NCBI RefSeq assembly: GCF_964020165.1 | Contig: NZ_OZ026537.1 | Span: 248,001-312,000 of the forward strand | Direction of reading: 5' to 3' | DNA from: Buchnera aphidicola (Drepanosiphum platanoidis) | GTDB lineage: Bacteria > Pseudomonadota > Gammaproteobacteria > Enterobacterales > Enterobacteriaceae | DNA: 64,000 bases | Shown: piece after piece, positions 16,672 to 34,504 of the stretch | How positions within the stretch are numbered: the stretch's first letter is position 1 | Layout: each line of letters starts with the position of its first letter | Made by a program: the position numbers and the translations under genes | The notes under the pieces: generated by a model | The model's database searches: none | What the model was told of the DNA's origin: nothing | What the model saw: the letters and a program-made list of their open reading frames with translations, nothing else

Positions 16672-18090
16672 TCATTTATTATTCTTATAAGGATTAAAGC
16701 TTTCTTTAAAATATAAAACCAAAGAATTTCCAGAAATTTTAAAAAATTTTTTAAAAAAATTTAACAAATATTTTTTATATTCTTGTGTTAAATATTTTAT
16801 ACGAGTTCCATGAATAATTATTTTTATGGGATTTAATCCACCTAAATGTATATATTTTAATTTTATTTTCTTTTTAAAAACTAAATTATTAATAGGATAT
16901 TTTAACAACGCATTTTTTAAAATTTTATTTAATGTTGAGCTTTTAATTTTTTTTTTATAAAATTTTTTAATTAAATAAATAGAATTTAACAATTTTTTAA
17001 TATCTTTATTTAATAAAGCTGATAAATAAAAAATTTTTAAAAAACATAAAAATTTAAATTTAATTTTTATTTCTTTTTTAAAAATTTTTTTTTCTTTTTT
17101 TGAAAGAATATCCCATTTATTTACTATTATTATTATAGAAATTTTGTTTTTTAAAATGAAACTAGACAATTTCAAATCCTGTCTAGAAATTAATTTTTTA
17201 CTAGCATCAATAATCAATAAAGCAACATTTGTAAAATTAATTATCTTTTTTATAGAAAAAAAAGTAATTTTATCAATAACGTTTTTTTTTTTTTTTATTC
17301 CAGCTGTATCGATAAAAATAAAATTTTCATTTTTATATTTTTTTGAATTCCAAATATTATCTCGAGTAGTTCCAGGTTTTTTAGAAGTTAATAATTTTTT
17401 TTCTTGTAAAATATTATTTATTAATGTAGATTTTCCTGCATTAGGTTGACCAATACATATAATTTTAAAAATTTTAGGAAAATTATATTTAAATTCTTTT
17501 ATTTTTTTTGATTTTAAAAAATCATTAGAGGTGGAAACATTTTTTTTTTTTAAACATAAAAATTTTTTTTTATCTTTTTTAAAATTTTTAAGAAAATAAT
17601 AAAAAAAAATTTTTTCAATAGTTTGTTTTATTCCATGCCCATGAGCTGAGGAAACAAAAAAAATTTTTTTAAATCCAATTTCATAAAAATTATGAAAAAA
17701 TTTATATTTTTTTTTAAAATTATCAATTTTATTAATTATAAGAAAAACATTTTTTTTTGATATTTTTTTTAAATATTTAGCGATTTCTTTATCTTCAAAA
17801 GTTAACCCTACTTTTCCATCAACAACAAAAAATATTAGTTGAGATTGTTGTATCGCTTTTTTTGTATTTAAAAAAATTTTTGAGTGTGTTACAAATTTAA
17901 ACTTTGAAAATTTTATTCCAGCTGTATCGATTAAAATAATTTTTTTATTTTTAAACATAAAAAACCCATAATTTAAATCTTTAGTAAATCCTTTAATTTT
18001 AGAAACTAAAGCTTTTTTAGATTTTGTTAATCTATTAAATAACATTGATTTTCCAACATTTTCTCTTCCGATTAAAGATATAGTTAACAT
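16672..18090 (-). CDS. der: Ribosome assembly GTPase Der (EngA)
   Basis: GTPase with two tandem G domains plus a KH-like C-terminal domain, needed for 50S subunit maturation. 472 residues (E. coli 490). The first P-loop is GRENVGKSMLFNRLT (about 7-21) with DTAGI and NKID; the second is GQPNAGKSTLINN (about 216-228) with DTAGI and NKWD. The KH-like end (IHGTRIKYL) is present. The first P-loop has ENVGKSM where PNVGKST is usual, which keeps the key GKS. Confidence 0.96.
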   Translation of the reverse strand: MLTISLIGRENVGKSMLFNRLTKSKKALVSKIKGFTKDLNYGFFMFKNKKIILIDTAGIKFSKFKFVTHSKIFLNTKKAIQQSQLIFFVVDGKVGLTFEDKEIAKYLKKISKKNVFLIINKIDNFKKKYKFFHNFYEIGFKKIFFVSSAHGHGIKQTIEKIFFYYFLKNFKKDKKKFLCLKKKNVSTSNDFLKSKKIKEFKYNFPKIFKIICIGQPNAGKSTLINNILQEKKLLTSKKPGTTRDNIWNSKKYKNENFIFIDTAGIKKKKNVIDKITFFSIKKIINFTNVALLIIDASKKLISRQDLKLSSFILKNKISIIIIVNKWDILSKKEKKIFKKEIKIKFKFLCFLKIFYLSALLNKDIKKLLNSIYLIKKFYKKKIKSSTLNKILKNALLKYPINNLVFKKKIKLKYIHLGGLNPIKIIIHGTRIKYLTQEYKKYLLNFFKKFFKISGNSLVLYFKESFNPYKNNK

Positions 18091-19492
18091 AATTTTTCCA
18101 AAAATTTTATATAAAATTTTTAATGAAATAACAAAAAAAATTTATAAAATTAAATAATTATAAAAATATTAAAAAATTTTTAATATTTTTTAAATTAAAT
18201 TTTTTAATATGTTATTTTTTTATTTATTTCTATAAACTTATATTTTTTAATAAAAATTTTTATAAATTTAAAATATATTAAATTTTTTAATTTTTTTATA
18301 CAAATTTTAAAAATTTATAAACAAAAAATTTTATAAAATTATTTTTTTTTAATTTTTTTAAATTTTAATAAGTAAAAGTAAATAAATATTTTAAAATTTT
18401 TATAATTTTTAAGTAAATTTTAAAATTTAAAATATATTTTTTTTATATATGAAAAAAATATTAAATACTTATATTATTAATAATTTTTTTATATATTTAA
18501 AATATATATTTTAATTTTTTATTATTAATTTTTAAAATTTTTTTATATTATAACTTTTAATTATTTATATAAAATTTATAAATTTTAAATATATAAAAAA
18601 AAAATTAAAAAAAATAAAAATAAAAATAAAATTATTAATAAATAATTTTTTTATTTTTTTTATTAATTTTAAAATAAAATAATTATAAAAATATAAAAAA
18701 TATAAAAAATTATAAATTTATTTAATATAAAATATATTATATATACATATATATACATATATATATTAACATTAATTAATAACATTAATATCAAAAAAAA
18801 TAAAAAAAAATAAAATTAAATTAATCAATTTAATTTTATTTTTTATCTTTAAATAATTTTTAATTTTAAAATAATAAAAAAAAATTAAAAATTTTATAAA
18901 AATTTTTAATTTTAATATATAAAATTTTAAAAAAAATTTTAATTAAAATTAATTTAATTAAAAATAATTTTATTATTTTATTTTTTTTAAATTCTATTTA
19001 ATATTTTATAAAATATAAAAAATATAATTAAAATAAATAATATTTCTTATCTTTTCATATATAATAGTGTTTCATCTGTTTTCTATCTCATCTCTATAGA
19101 TATATTGTATAAATATTTTATCTAGATATGAGAGATAGATATAGAAATATATCTTATTTTATAAGATATATTTCTATATCTATCTCTCATATCTAGATAA
19201 AATATTTATTCTATATATCTATAGAGATGAGATAGAAAACAGATGAAACACTATTATATATGAAAAGATAAGAAATAAATTTTTTTTTTTTTTTTATTAT
19301 TAATTATATTATTTTTTAATTTTAAATATTAAATAAATTTTAAAAATTTTAAAATATATAAAATATAAAATATTTTTATTAATTTTTAAATTTAAAAAAA
19401 TTTTAAATTTTTTTAAAATTTTATATATTAAAATTAAAAATTTTAAACAAATAATAATATAATAACTTTAATTAATGGTAATTTTAATAAAA
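18091..19492. other. Gene-free divergent region der-mnmG, possible origin region
   Basis: About 1.4 kb without any gene between the divergent der (minus) and mnmG (plus). Most of it is nearly pure A+T with many short A and T runs. Its outstanding element is the palindrome at 19041-19277 described separately. In gammaproteobacteria the region next to mnmG (gidA) is where oriC commonly lies and Buchnera genomes are usually numbered from here, so an origin is a reasonable guess. I found no match to the DnaA box TTATCCACA by eye. Confidence 0.55.
19041..19277. repeat. Giant near-perfect palindrome, 117-bp arms, 3-nt loop
   Basis: Left arm 19041-19157 and right arm 19161-19277 are reverse complements around the loop ttt (19158-19160). 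Only two positions fail to pair, both T against T: 19106/19212 and 19108/19210. The arms are visibly richer in G and C than the sequence on either side. Symmetry stops abruptly at both ends. Within it the octamer GAGATAGA or its complement occurs four times (19082-19089, 19132-19139, 19179-19186, 19229-19236). It lies about 215 bp upstream of mnmG. Function is unknown: candidates are an origin structure, a cruciform or hairpin RNA, a mobile-element remnant, or an assembly join. Confidence 0.95.
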
Positions 19493-21367
19493 ATGAATAA
19501 AAAAAATTTTGATATTGTAATAATTGGTGGAGGTCATGCTGGAATTGAAGCATCTTTAATTGCAGCAAAAATGCATTGTAAAACTTTATTAATTACTCAA
19601 AAATTAAAAAATATTGGTAATTTATCTTGTAATCCAGCTATAGGAGGAATTGGAAAAGGACATTTAGTAAAAGAAATAGATGCTTTAGGTGGAATAATAG
19701 GAAAAATTACTGATCGATCAGGAATACAATTTAAAACATTAAATTTTAAAAAAGGAGCAGCTGTACAATCTACTCGTGTGCAAGTAGATAAAAACATTTA
19801 TGCAAAAAAAGCTCAATATTTTTTAAAAAATCAATCTAATTTATTTTTGTTAGAAGAAGAAGTATCTAAAATATTAATTAAAAATGATTATATTATAGGA
19901 ATTAAAACATTAAAAAATAAAAAAATTTTTTCTAAATCAGTAATATTAACAACTGGAACTTTTTTAAATGGAAAAATTTATATTGGAAATTCTGTTTCTT
20001 CTGGAGGAAGAATAAAAGATATTTCTTCAATAAAATTATCTCAAAATTTAAAAAAAATTTTAACAAAAGTCAAACGTTTAAAAACAGGCACACCTCCTAG
20101 AATTGATAAAAAAACAATAAATTTTTCAAAATTAAAGATTCAAAAAGGAGATTTTCCAATTCCATTTTTTTCTTTTTCGAAACATGATTTTAAACTATTA
20201 CCACAAAAATTTTGTTATATTACTTATACTAATGAAAAAACCCATGAAATTGTAAGAAAAAATATTCATTTAAGTCCTCTTTATTCTGGATTAATAAAAG
20301 GAATAGGCCCAAGATATTGTCCTTCTTTAGAAGATAAAATTATTAAATTTCCAGAAAAAGTACGTCATCAAATTTTTTTAGAGCCAGAAGGATTAAATAA
20401 TCATATTATTTATCCAAATGGAATTTCCACTAGTTTTCCTTTACAAATACAACAAAAAATAATAAATTCAATTGTAGGTTTAGAAAATGCAAAAATAATT
20501 GTTCCTGGATATGCTGTAGAATATGATTATTTTAATCCAAAAAATTTAAAATTGACTTTAGAATCAAAGCATATAAAAGGTCTCTTTTTAGCAGGACAAA
20601 TTAATGGTACTACAGGATATGAAGAAGCTGCAGCTCAAGGATTATTAGCTGGAATAAATGCGGCTTTATATATTAAAGAAAAAAAAAGTTGGTTTCCTTC
20701 TAGACATGAAGCTTATATAGGAGTATTAATAGATGATTTATGTTTTAAAGGTATAACAGAACCATATCGTATGTTTACTGCTCGAGCTGAACATCGATTA
20801 ATTTTAAGAGAAGATAATGCAGATAAAAGATTAACAAATATTGGAAGAAAATTAGGATTAGTTGATAATTATCAATGGATTCGTTATAATAAAAAAATTC
20901 AAAATTTAAAATTTGAAAAAAAAAGAATAAAAAATTTATTAATTCATCCTTTTTCTTCAAAATCAAAAATTTTAAATGATATTTCTTTAACTTCAATAAT
21001 ATCTAAAAAAATTAATGGAATTGAACTTTTAAAAAGACCAGAGATAAATTTTAAAAAATTAATTAAATTTAAAATTTTTAAACCAACTATATCTGAAAAA
21101 TTATTACACATTTTAGAAACTGAAATAAAATATTATGGATATATTAAAAAAGAAAAAAAAAAAATAAAAAATCAAAAAAAATATAAAAAATTATTTTTAC
21201 CTAAGCAAATAAATTATTCAAAAATAGTTGGATTATCAAATGAAATAATAGAAAAATTGAATTTTTATAAACCATCCACTATTGGTCATGCATCTAGAAT
21301 ATCTGGTATGACTCCAGTTGCAATTTCAATTTTATTAATATATATAAAAAAAAATTTGTTTAAGTAA
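19493..21367 (+). CDS. mnmG: tRNA uridine-34 modification enzyme MnmG (GidA)
   Basis: FAD protein that with MnmE (34591 here) forms the cmnm5 group on U34 of several tRNAs. About 624 residues (E. coli 629). The FAD-binding loop is [16 protein letters not shown] near the N-terminus, then [19 protein letters not shown], the conserved GTPPRID, and [21 protein letters not shown] start at the ATG of MNKKNFDIV, which fits the family; an in-frame ATG six codons earlier (19475) is possible. It precedes the atp operon, as in E. coli. Confidence 0.96.
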
Positions 21368-32131: not shown

Positions 32132-32443
32132 ATTTTTTATATTAAATTTAAACGATTTAATTTTTTATGAAAATATAACATAATAATGTTTAATATATTA
32201 AATTATTAATTTTTAATATAAATATTTTATTTATTTTAATTTAATTTTTTAGTAAATTATTTATTATACTATTATAATGTTATAATTACGAATATTATAT
32301 GAAGAATAATGTTTTATTAAAAATAATTTAAAATATTTTTTAATATTTTATAATTTTTAAAAATGTTAATTTTTAAAATAATTAAAAATTAAATAATATA
32401 TTTTTAAGAATAAAATATATAAAAATTAGAGGTATTTATTTTT
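32132..32443. other. dnaN-rpmH intergenic region; dnaA missing
   Basis: A 312-bp divergent spacer between dnaN (minus) and rpmH (plus). In E. coli, and as I recall in other Buchnera, dnaA (about 1.4 kb) stands here. No reading frame, dnaA remnant or DnaA box (TTATCCACA type) is visible. It must hold the promoters for dnaN and for rpmH-rnpA; an agaggt stretch about 12 bases before the rpmH ATG is a fair ribosome-binding site. Confidence 0.8.
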
Positions 32444-33847: not shown

Positions 33848-34504
33848 ATGTTTAGTATAAACTCTCATTTATTTTTTAATAATACTCATGTTCATGGATT
33901 TTTTTATTTTTTATCTGAGCCTTTGTTTTATGTTTTAGCATTTTTTAATAAAATTTTTAAAAATTGGGGGTTTTCAATAATAATGTTAACAATTTTTATT
34001 AGAATTATTATGTACCCCCTAGCTAGATTTCAGCAAGAAACATTAGCAAAAATAACAAATTTGCAACCTCAGATTTTAAATATTAAAGAAAAATTTAAGC
34101 ATGATTATAATGAATCAAATGTACAAATTTTAAAATTATATAAAGAAAATAATGTTAATCCATTATATAGTTTTCTTCCTATTTTGTTACAAACGCCTTT
34201 TTTTTTAGCTTTATATCATCTTTTAACTACTGTAAATGAATTAAAACGTGCTCCTTTTGTTTTTTGGATACAAGATTTATCTACATATGATCCTTGTTAC
34301 ATATTACCAATGATTTTAGGATTTACTATTTATTTACTTCAAATAAGTAGTTTAAATAGTCAATCTAGCTATTTATTAGAAGCATCTCCAAGCAATAAAT
34401 ATTTTATTATATTATTTTCTGTTTTTATGGCTTTATTTTTTATGCATTTTCCATCAGGATTATTAATATATTATATAGTTAATAATATTATTTCTATTAT
34501 TTAA
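33848..34504 (+). CDS. yidC: Membrane insertase YidC, reduced to the insertase core
   Basis: 218 residues against ~530-550 in E. coli. The first membrane helix and the large periplasmic domain are absent; translation cannot extend upstream because of an in-frame TAA at 33833-33835. What remains is the Oxa1-like core: GFFYFLSEPLFYVLAFF, the helix WGFSIIMLTIFIRIIMYPLA with the groove arginine, the cytoplasmic hairpin (LQPQILNIKEKF...VNPLYSFLPILLQTPFF), APFVFWIQDLS and FMHFPSGLLIYYIVNN. It stops at IISII, so the basic ribosome-binding tail is also lost. No signal peptide. It resembles short Oxa1/SpoIIIJ-type insertases and is probably functional. Confidence 0.92.
   Translation: MFSINSHLFFNNTHVHGFFYFLSEPLFYVLAFFNKIFKNWGFSIIMLTIFIRIIMYPLARFQQETLAKITNLQPQILNIKEKFKHDYNESNVQILKLYKENNVNPLYSFLPILLQTPFFLALYHLLTTVNELKRAPFVFWIQDLSTYDPCYILPMILGFTIYLLQISSLNSQSSYLLEASPSNKYFIILFSVFMALFFMHFPSGLLIYYIVNNIISII

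Follow-up and report, generated by a model that had tools for sequence, protein, structure and literature searches.

The window, a 64-kb stretch of DNA covering positions 248001-312000 of a 449,227-base genome in one contig, contains two divergent genes separated by a 1.4-kb spacer (18091..19474, no strand assigned). The der gene, encoding a ribosome biogenesis GTPase (472 aa, TIGR03594), is located on the minus strand at 16672..18090, and mnmG/gidA (630 aa, TIGR00136) is located on the plus strand at 19475..21367. The genes downstream of mnmG are presumably atp genes. Apart from a long palindrome, the spacer is approximately 2% GC.

The palindrome consists of a left arm (19041..19157), a TTT loop (19158..19160, centred on 19159) and a right arm (19161..19277), none of them assigned to a strand. 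Each arm is 117 bp long and contains 23 G+C. The arms fail to pair at exactly two sites (left-arm positions 19106 and 19108), each of them a T:T mispair, and the symmetry ends sharply beyond 118 bases from the centre. The sequence-only reading had described a 237-bp near-perfect palindrome with 117-bp arms, a loop of three T and two mispairs, which is exactly what lies at 19041-19277. Relative to the mnmG codon at 19493, the palindrome spans −216 to −452. A run of 16 T on the plus strand (19280..19295) starts three bases past the palindrome and is terminator-like in layout only.

Size, composition and integrity of the palindrome

The palindrome scored 109. The runner-up in the 64-kb window scored 19, and no palindrome in Markov shuffles of the der/mnmG spacer (n = 200) exceeded 21. 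Markov sequences of 64 kb (n = 3) contained no arm of at least 30, the longest being 24. Folded as RNA, the palindrome gave −165.8 kcal/mol (z = −28.8), and none of 200 shuffles folded equally well. A chance origin was thus ruled out by the score, the RNA-fold shuffles and the Markov sequences. The palindrome is real in the assembled sequence and extreme in size. Under the definition used in PMC3017870 (arms of at least 30 bp with no more than 3 mismatches and a gap of up to 20), it has 117-bp arms, 2 mismatches and a gap of 3.

Stop codons were present in all six frames, which rules out protein-coding arms. In a DNA search of the whole genome on both strands, the sole match of the palindrome was itself, and an origin as a copy of another genomic place was therefore discarded. 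A DNA search of 40 genomes gave matches in 13, including the window's own genome (G000); the rest were short pieces, and the match in G027, which was inspected, was a simple repeat. A contig search for relatives returned one Clostridia locus only, which was set aside.

The GC content was 19.4% within the palindrome, compared with 2.4% and 1.0% in the spacer to its left and right, respectively. The arms alone are 19.7% GC (23/117) against 2.2% for the spacer (binomial P = 1e-15), indicating that they were not copied from the present flank. Among noncoding 117-bp windows (n = 973, 264 kb), the median GC content was 4.3% and 3.2% of the windows reached 19%. Clusters of such windows with at least 17% GC numbered five: two in the 16S rRNA, one just upstream of it, one at rpmH, a gene missed by the ORF filter of the noncoding mask, and the palindrome. 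Because three of the five are 16S rRNA or rpmH, only the palindrome and the stretch upstream of the 16S rRNA stand out outside genes and rRNA, within a mask that hides spots inside ORFs kept as genes (at least 60 aa with GC above 10%, or at least 450 bp). The second composition outlier, G000:C1:10714-10871, is noncoding, lies directly before the 16S rRNA and has a GC content of 19.7%; it is perhaps a conserved leader. The G+C content of the palindrome is the strongest hint at a function or a recent arrival.

An inserted foreign hairpin element, such as a plasmid, phage or viral terminal repeat, was considered. The abrupt G+C step at both edges and the lack of a counterpart in relatives are consistent with such an insertion. 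No phage or plasmid match was obtained, however, and an IMG/VR scan with an exact 24-base pattern, a single narrow one, gave no hit; visual inspection of the edges revealed no site duplication. A foreign insertion is extremely improbable, and a plasmid, phage or viral source was dropped for lack of matches, the viral part on that one pattern. A hairpin telomere or telomere-resolution site, a role called speculative in the sequence-only reading, was also rejected: the protelomerase family PF16684 was found in none of the 11 genus genomes (a weak control, found in only 1 of 14 genomes), and the palindrome is interior with unlike flanks.

An assembly artefact, in which the second arm derives from a fold-back read or a consensus error, was also weighed. 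Our analysis rests on the assembled sequence, and both mispairs lie within 3 bp. According to passages of PMC3017870, long palindromes of Blochmannia hampered Sanger sequencing and Velvet assembly. Against an artefact, the flanks are unlike, the palindrome is sharply bounded at either end, two differences separate the arms and the contig runs on to the left and to the right. We regard this explanation as very unlikely.

Loss of dnaA and the likely replication origin

The dnaA profile scored above the cut-off in 10 of the 11 genus genomes. The gene was absent only from the window's genome, in which the sole match to the profile (39.5 bits) was the gene for a DnaC-type loader; the sequence-only reading had overlooked this loss. 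Relatives keep dnaA in the gap between dnaN and rpmH, which in the window (32132..32443, 312 bp, no strand assigned) is without it. Elsewhere in the window, YidC (33848-34504) is a 218-aa membrane core that matches the C-terminal part only of full-length models.

In a wider set, 24 of 46 genomes (G000 counted) fell under the dnaA cut-off. They include the Buchnera-like genomes G287, G354, G210, G085, G203, G283 and G056, and a few other genomes have broken dnaA copies. Buchnera-like genomes without dnaA belong to at least three genera besides that of the window's genome. In six genomes representing four genera (G005, G136, G242, G248, G313 and G189), the gene is split or frame-shifted at about residues 83-101, where slippage, decay or a two-piece DnaA may be involved. 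This break zone is close to the limit of the N-terminal domain.

No DnaA box within one mismatch of TTATNCACA was present in the 1 kb upstream of mnmG in the window (shuffled mean 1.26), whereas the same 1 kb contained 2 to 14 box-like sites in the 10 relatives (shuffled means 1.2 to 2.4). The highest counts, in G004 and G005, arise from tandem repeats, and the count in G006 is at shuffle level. Seven relatives (G001, G002, G003, G006, G007, G009 and G010) have box-like sites at −261 to −294, and steps of 11 bp separate such sites in G006, G007, G009 and G010. The two features of a DnaA-type origin, a dnaA gene and DnaA boxes, were thus both missing for the genome of this der/mnmG spacer. Differing tandem repeats were observed in the spacer upstream of mnmG in several genomes (G004, approximately 41 bp; G005, 20 bp; G318, 86 bp; G287, which contains N, a spacing of approximately 91 bp; and G283); this spacer is perhaps a hot spot for repeats.

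We analyzed the coding-strand skew at third codon positions (GC3) in 182 ORFs of at least 450 bp over 264 kb. The skew was 0.081 (plus strand) and 0.437 (minus strand) to the left of 267.2 kb, and 0.423 (plus) and 0.043 (minus) to the right; these four values are not independent of the proposed origin, as the replichore limits, 43 and 267.2 kb, were preset by us. A free scan of the skew switch, with skew values taken from the preset-limit calculation, had its optimum at genome positions 259-262 kb, and positions from 258 to 277 kb were within about 7 lnL. The palindrome, at 267.16 kb, was 2.2 lnL below the best switch. The origin is likely near mnmG, and the palindrome is not singled out by the skew. 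The origin-proximal place suggested in the sequence-only reading fits this result.

The palindrome could be the working part of a DnaA-independent origin, in which a cruciform or hairpin extruded in the A+T-rich spacer would provide the entry for helicase loading after the loss of dnaA. This is consistent with the loss of dnaA in one of the 11 genus genomes with retention of the DnaC-type loader gene, the box-free spacer, the persistence of a strong replichore skew with its switch nearby and the G+C content that stands out among noncoding DNA. In addition, the palindrome (−216 to −452) overlaps or nears the box-like zone of the seven relatives. On the other hand, the skew switch fits best 5-8 kb further left, and the absence of boxes is weak evidence because some dnaA-bearing genomes have shuffle-level counts. 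With the genome comparisons below also taken into account, we consider such a role rather unlikely. That replication, after the loss of dnaA and its boxes, starts at or beside the 237-bp cruciform-forming palindrome, with selection preserving the symmetry and the missing SbcCD permitting it, is distinctly doubtful; if true, DNA structure would be the basis of a bacterial chromosome origin that works without DnaA.

Palindromes in other reduced genomes

Palindromes were compared among genomes under the PMC3017870 definition given above, and counts outside the window come from sampled stretches. The der/mnmG interval of the other 10 same-genus genomes had no palindrome; the sequence-only reading had suggested a search for one at this interval in other Buchnera genomes. 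MnmG of the window's genome is 59-63% identical to that of these 10 genomes, the nearest compared. A tree built on MnmG from 35 genomes shows the window's genome as a long branch that joins them with a support of 93/95, just below the star threshold of the tool. On its size, gene order and place in this tree, we regard the genome as Buchnera-like.

A palindrome upstream of mnmG was found in 2 of 31 intervals, those of the window's genome and of G248 (38-bp arms, 33 perfect). The intervals were from the 11 members of the genus and from 20 small genomes of other genera with a record beginning at mnmG; those of G287 and G219 contain N. Eleven further small genomes, seven of them without dnaA, had none. 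The 14 other small genomes without dnaA (G287 gapped by N) had no palindrome with an arm of at least 30 upstream of mnmG. The rule that the loss of dnaA leads to a palindrome at this place was thus ruled out, with one case in 15 dnaA-less genomes (G000 counted, G287 gapped by N). Seven of the dnaA-less small genomes are outside the Buchnera-like set and, unlike the window's genome, have no such arm.

Only two palindromes were found in the 264 kb sampled from the 449 kb of the window's genome: the 237-bp one, which is the only G+C-bearing one with an arm of at least 30, and an A+T-rich one with 36-bp arms. Fourteen other genomes (600 kb sampled) also had two in all, one in G302 (52-bp arms, G+C-rich core) and one, of A+T only, in G004.

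G248, a Buchnera-like genome, differs in having many palindromes. Eight were found in 200 kb sampled (arms 31-91 bp, loops 1-5), several of them at or near gene 3′ ends, in addition to the one upstream of mnmG; they are located at L112:10336-10519 and L113-L121. None were found in G318 (60 kb) or G146 (40 kb), which belong to the same genus as G248. G248 resembles the window's genome in the absence of sbcD, while its palindromes are shorter and numerous and its dnaA is kept, though broken by a frame change. The use of the palindrome as an origin device is weakened by the 14 dnaA-less genomes without one upstream of mnmG and by the G248 palindromes, many of which are distant from mnmG.

The palindrome could also be a very long terminator or an RNA element. 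Plus-strand transcripts entering from the left would form the 117-bp hairpin followed by 16 T, blocking read-through into mnmG, or would yield a stable RNA cut by RNase III. The T16 run three bases past the stem on the plus strand and the position of several G248 palindromes at or near gene 3′ ends, the one at metE having a terminator-like core, point in this direction. Passages of PMC3229713 report a 97-nt stem-loop on plasmid pLeu of strain APS, conserved between aphid species. In our measurements, the pLeu stem-loops had 48-bp arms with a loop of 1 in APS (NC_002253) and 41-bp arms with a loop of 33 in BCc (NC_011878). The pLeu element is likewise a long palindrome in the same symbiont lineage, but it is plasmid-borne beside rep/leu genes, whereas the window palindrome is flanked by der and mnmG. 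A plasmid collection gave no sequence match to the window palindrome.

Against a terminator, the stem base beside the T run is A+T-rich, and a scan for intrinsic terminators, in which a G+C-rich stem is directly followed by a T run, found 0 sites in 18000-19700. As der and mnmG are divergent, no terminator is expected in the spacer, and runs of A or T are common in the window (34 of at least 12 and 9 of at least 14). A search of Rfam gave generic hairpin matches only, all below gathering scores, and no known structured RNA was found. We consider a terminator or RNA element unlikely. The origin cruciform, segregation site or structured RNA proposed in the sequence-only reading gained no support from the 10 relatives and the 14 dnaA-less genomes (one gapped), which lack the palindrome, or from the sub-gathering Rfam matches.

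Formation of the palindrome and its meaning

SbcCD is the bacterial counterpart of Mre11-Rad50. The sequence-only reading had invoked the loss of the nuclease that removes palindromes. In agreement, a profile search for sbcD, the one half of SbcCD that was searched, detected the family in 0 of 11 genus genomes (control found in 13 of 14 genomes, 8 above the cut-off). In the wider set, sbcD was above the cut-off in 0 of 25 genomes (G000 included), with two weak sub-threshold matches. The lack of SbcCD alone does not produce palindromes, because they are rare in the 14 other genomes though sbcD is missing wherever it was searched.

We favour, with confidence and doubt about evenly balanced, the explanation that the palindrome arose as an inverted duplication by fold-back and is tolerated, in the absence of SbcCD, within a decayed oriC slot. 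When a fork stalled, the nascent strand would have folded at a short inverted repeat separated by a 3-nt loop and then copied itself by snap-back or template switch, giving a long inverted duplication. Such a palindrome would persist in a genome without an SbcCD-type hairpin nuclease. The palindrome lies in the spacer in which relatives carry DnaA-box-like sites, the boxes and dnaA being gone here. The symmetry of the arms would reflect youth or repair-driven upkeep, and the palindrome would probably have no dedicated function.

The longest G248 palindrome is a traceable case, with perfect 91-bp arms and a loop of 1. The last codons of metE lie in its left arm (the profile match extends to residue 756 of 758), and at its right end 9 bases are shared with the purH frame. 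As the left arm belongs to metE itself, being the native 3′ end of that gene, the right arm is the copy, made around a terminator-like hairpin; one arm is thus native and the other its copy, as snap-back predicts. This case shows how such palindromes form naturally without the hairpin nuclease, and a snap-back origin of the window palindrome is suggested by analogy with it.

Snap-back is further supported by the loss of sbcD, by the lack of a counterpart in the 10 relatives and by reports from yeast and Blochmannia. In yeast deficient in Mre11 or Sae2, passages of PMC7999016 describe snap-back palindromic duplications arising from 5-9-bp inverted repeats with 3-12-bp spacers. Passages of PMC3017870 report 6, 10 and 20 long, mostly intergenic palindromes of 62-136 bp total length in three Blochmannia genomes. 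These are likewise near-perfect, with a small gap, in a reduced insect endosymbiont, but they are shorter and number 6 to 20 per genome, compared with 237 bp beside mnmG here and one other (36-bp arms) in 264 of 449 kb. The same passages argue that palindromes decay without selection, which counts against snap-back, as do the arm G+C content unlike that of the flank, the lack of another genomic copy, the singularity of the palindrome as the only G+C-bearing one in 264 kb and the location near the likely origin. The snap-back reading by itself leaves the G+C content of the palindrome unexplained.

Passages of PMC10434271 attribute the highest density of short inverted repeats to Buchnera BCc. 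Among the literature matches listed, with subscription papers mostly outside the scope, titles and abstract openings contained no chromosomal palindrome beside mnmG in Buchnera. The passages covered mention no palindrome or inverted repeat in PMC11188193 and PMC3571970 and no palindrome, the one term searched, in PMC6908640; those of PMC3164680 mention neither palindrome nor inverted repeat and include one "hairpin" passage. Even if functionless, the window palindrome is longer than the Blochmannia ones reported in the passages of PMC3017870.

Passages of PMC4389277 describe losses of dnaA in endosymbionts and state that Buchnera retains the gene. In dnaA-less Blochmannia, they report that the origin was predicted beside mnmG in most cases. 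The window's genome is similar in having lost dnaA with a likely origin by mnmG; these passages name no palindrome. They describe the mechanism of initiation without DnaA as unclear for Blochmannia, a question on which the window's genome bears. It combines a strong replichore skew with the loss of dnaA, and its usual spacer contains a giant palindrome and lacks any DnaA box, which offers a concrete site for studying DnaA-less initiation.
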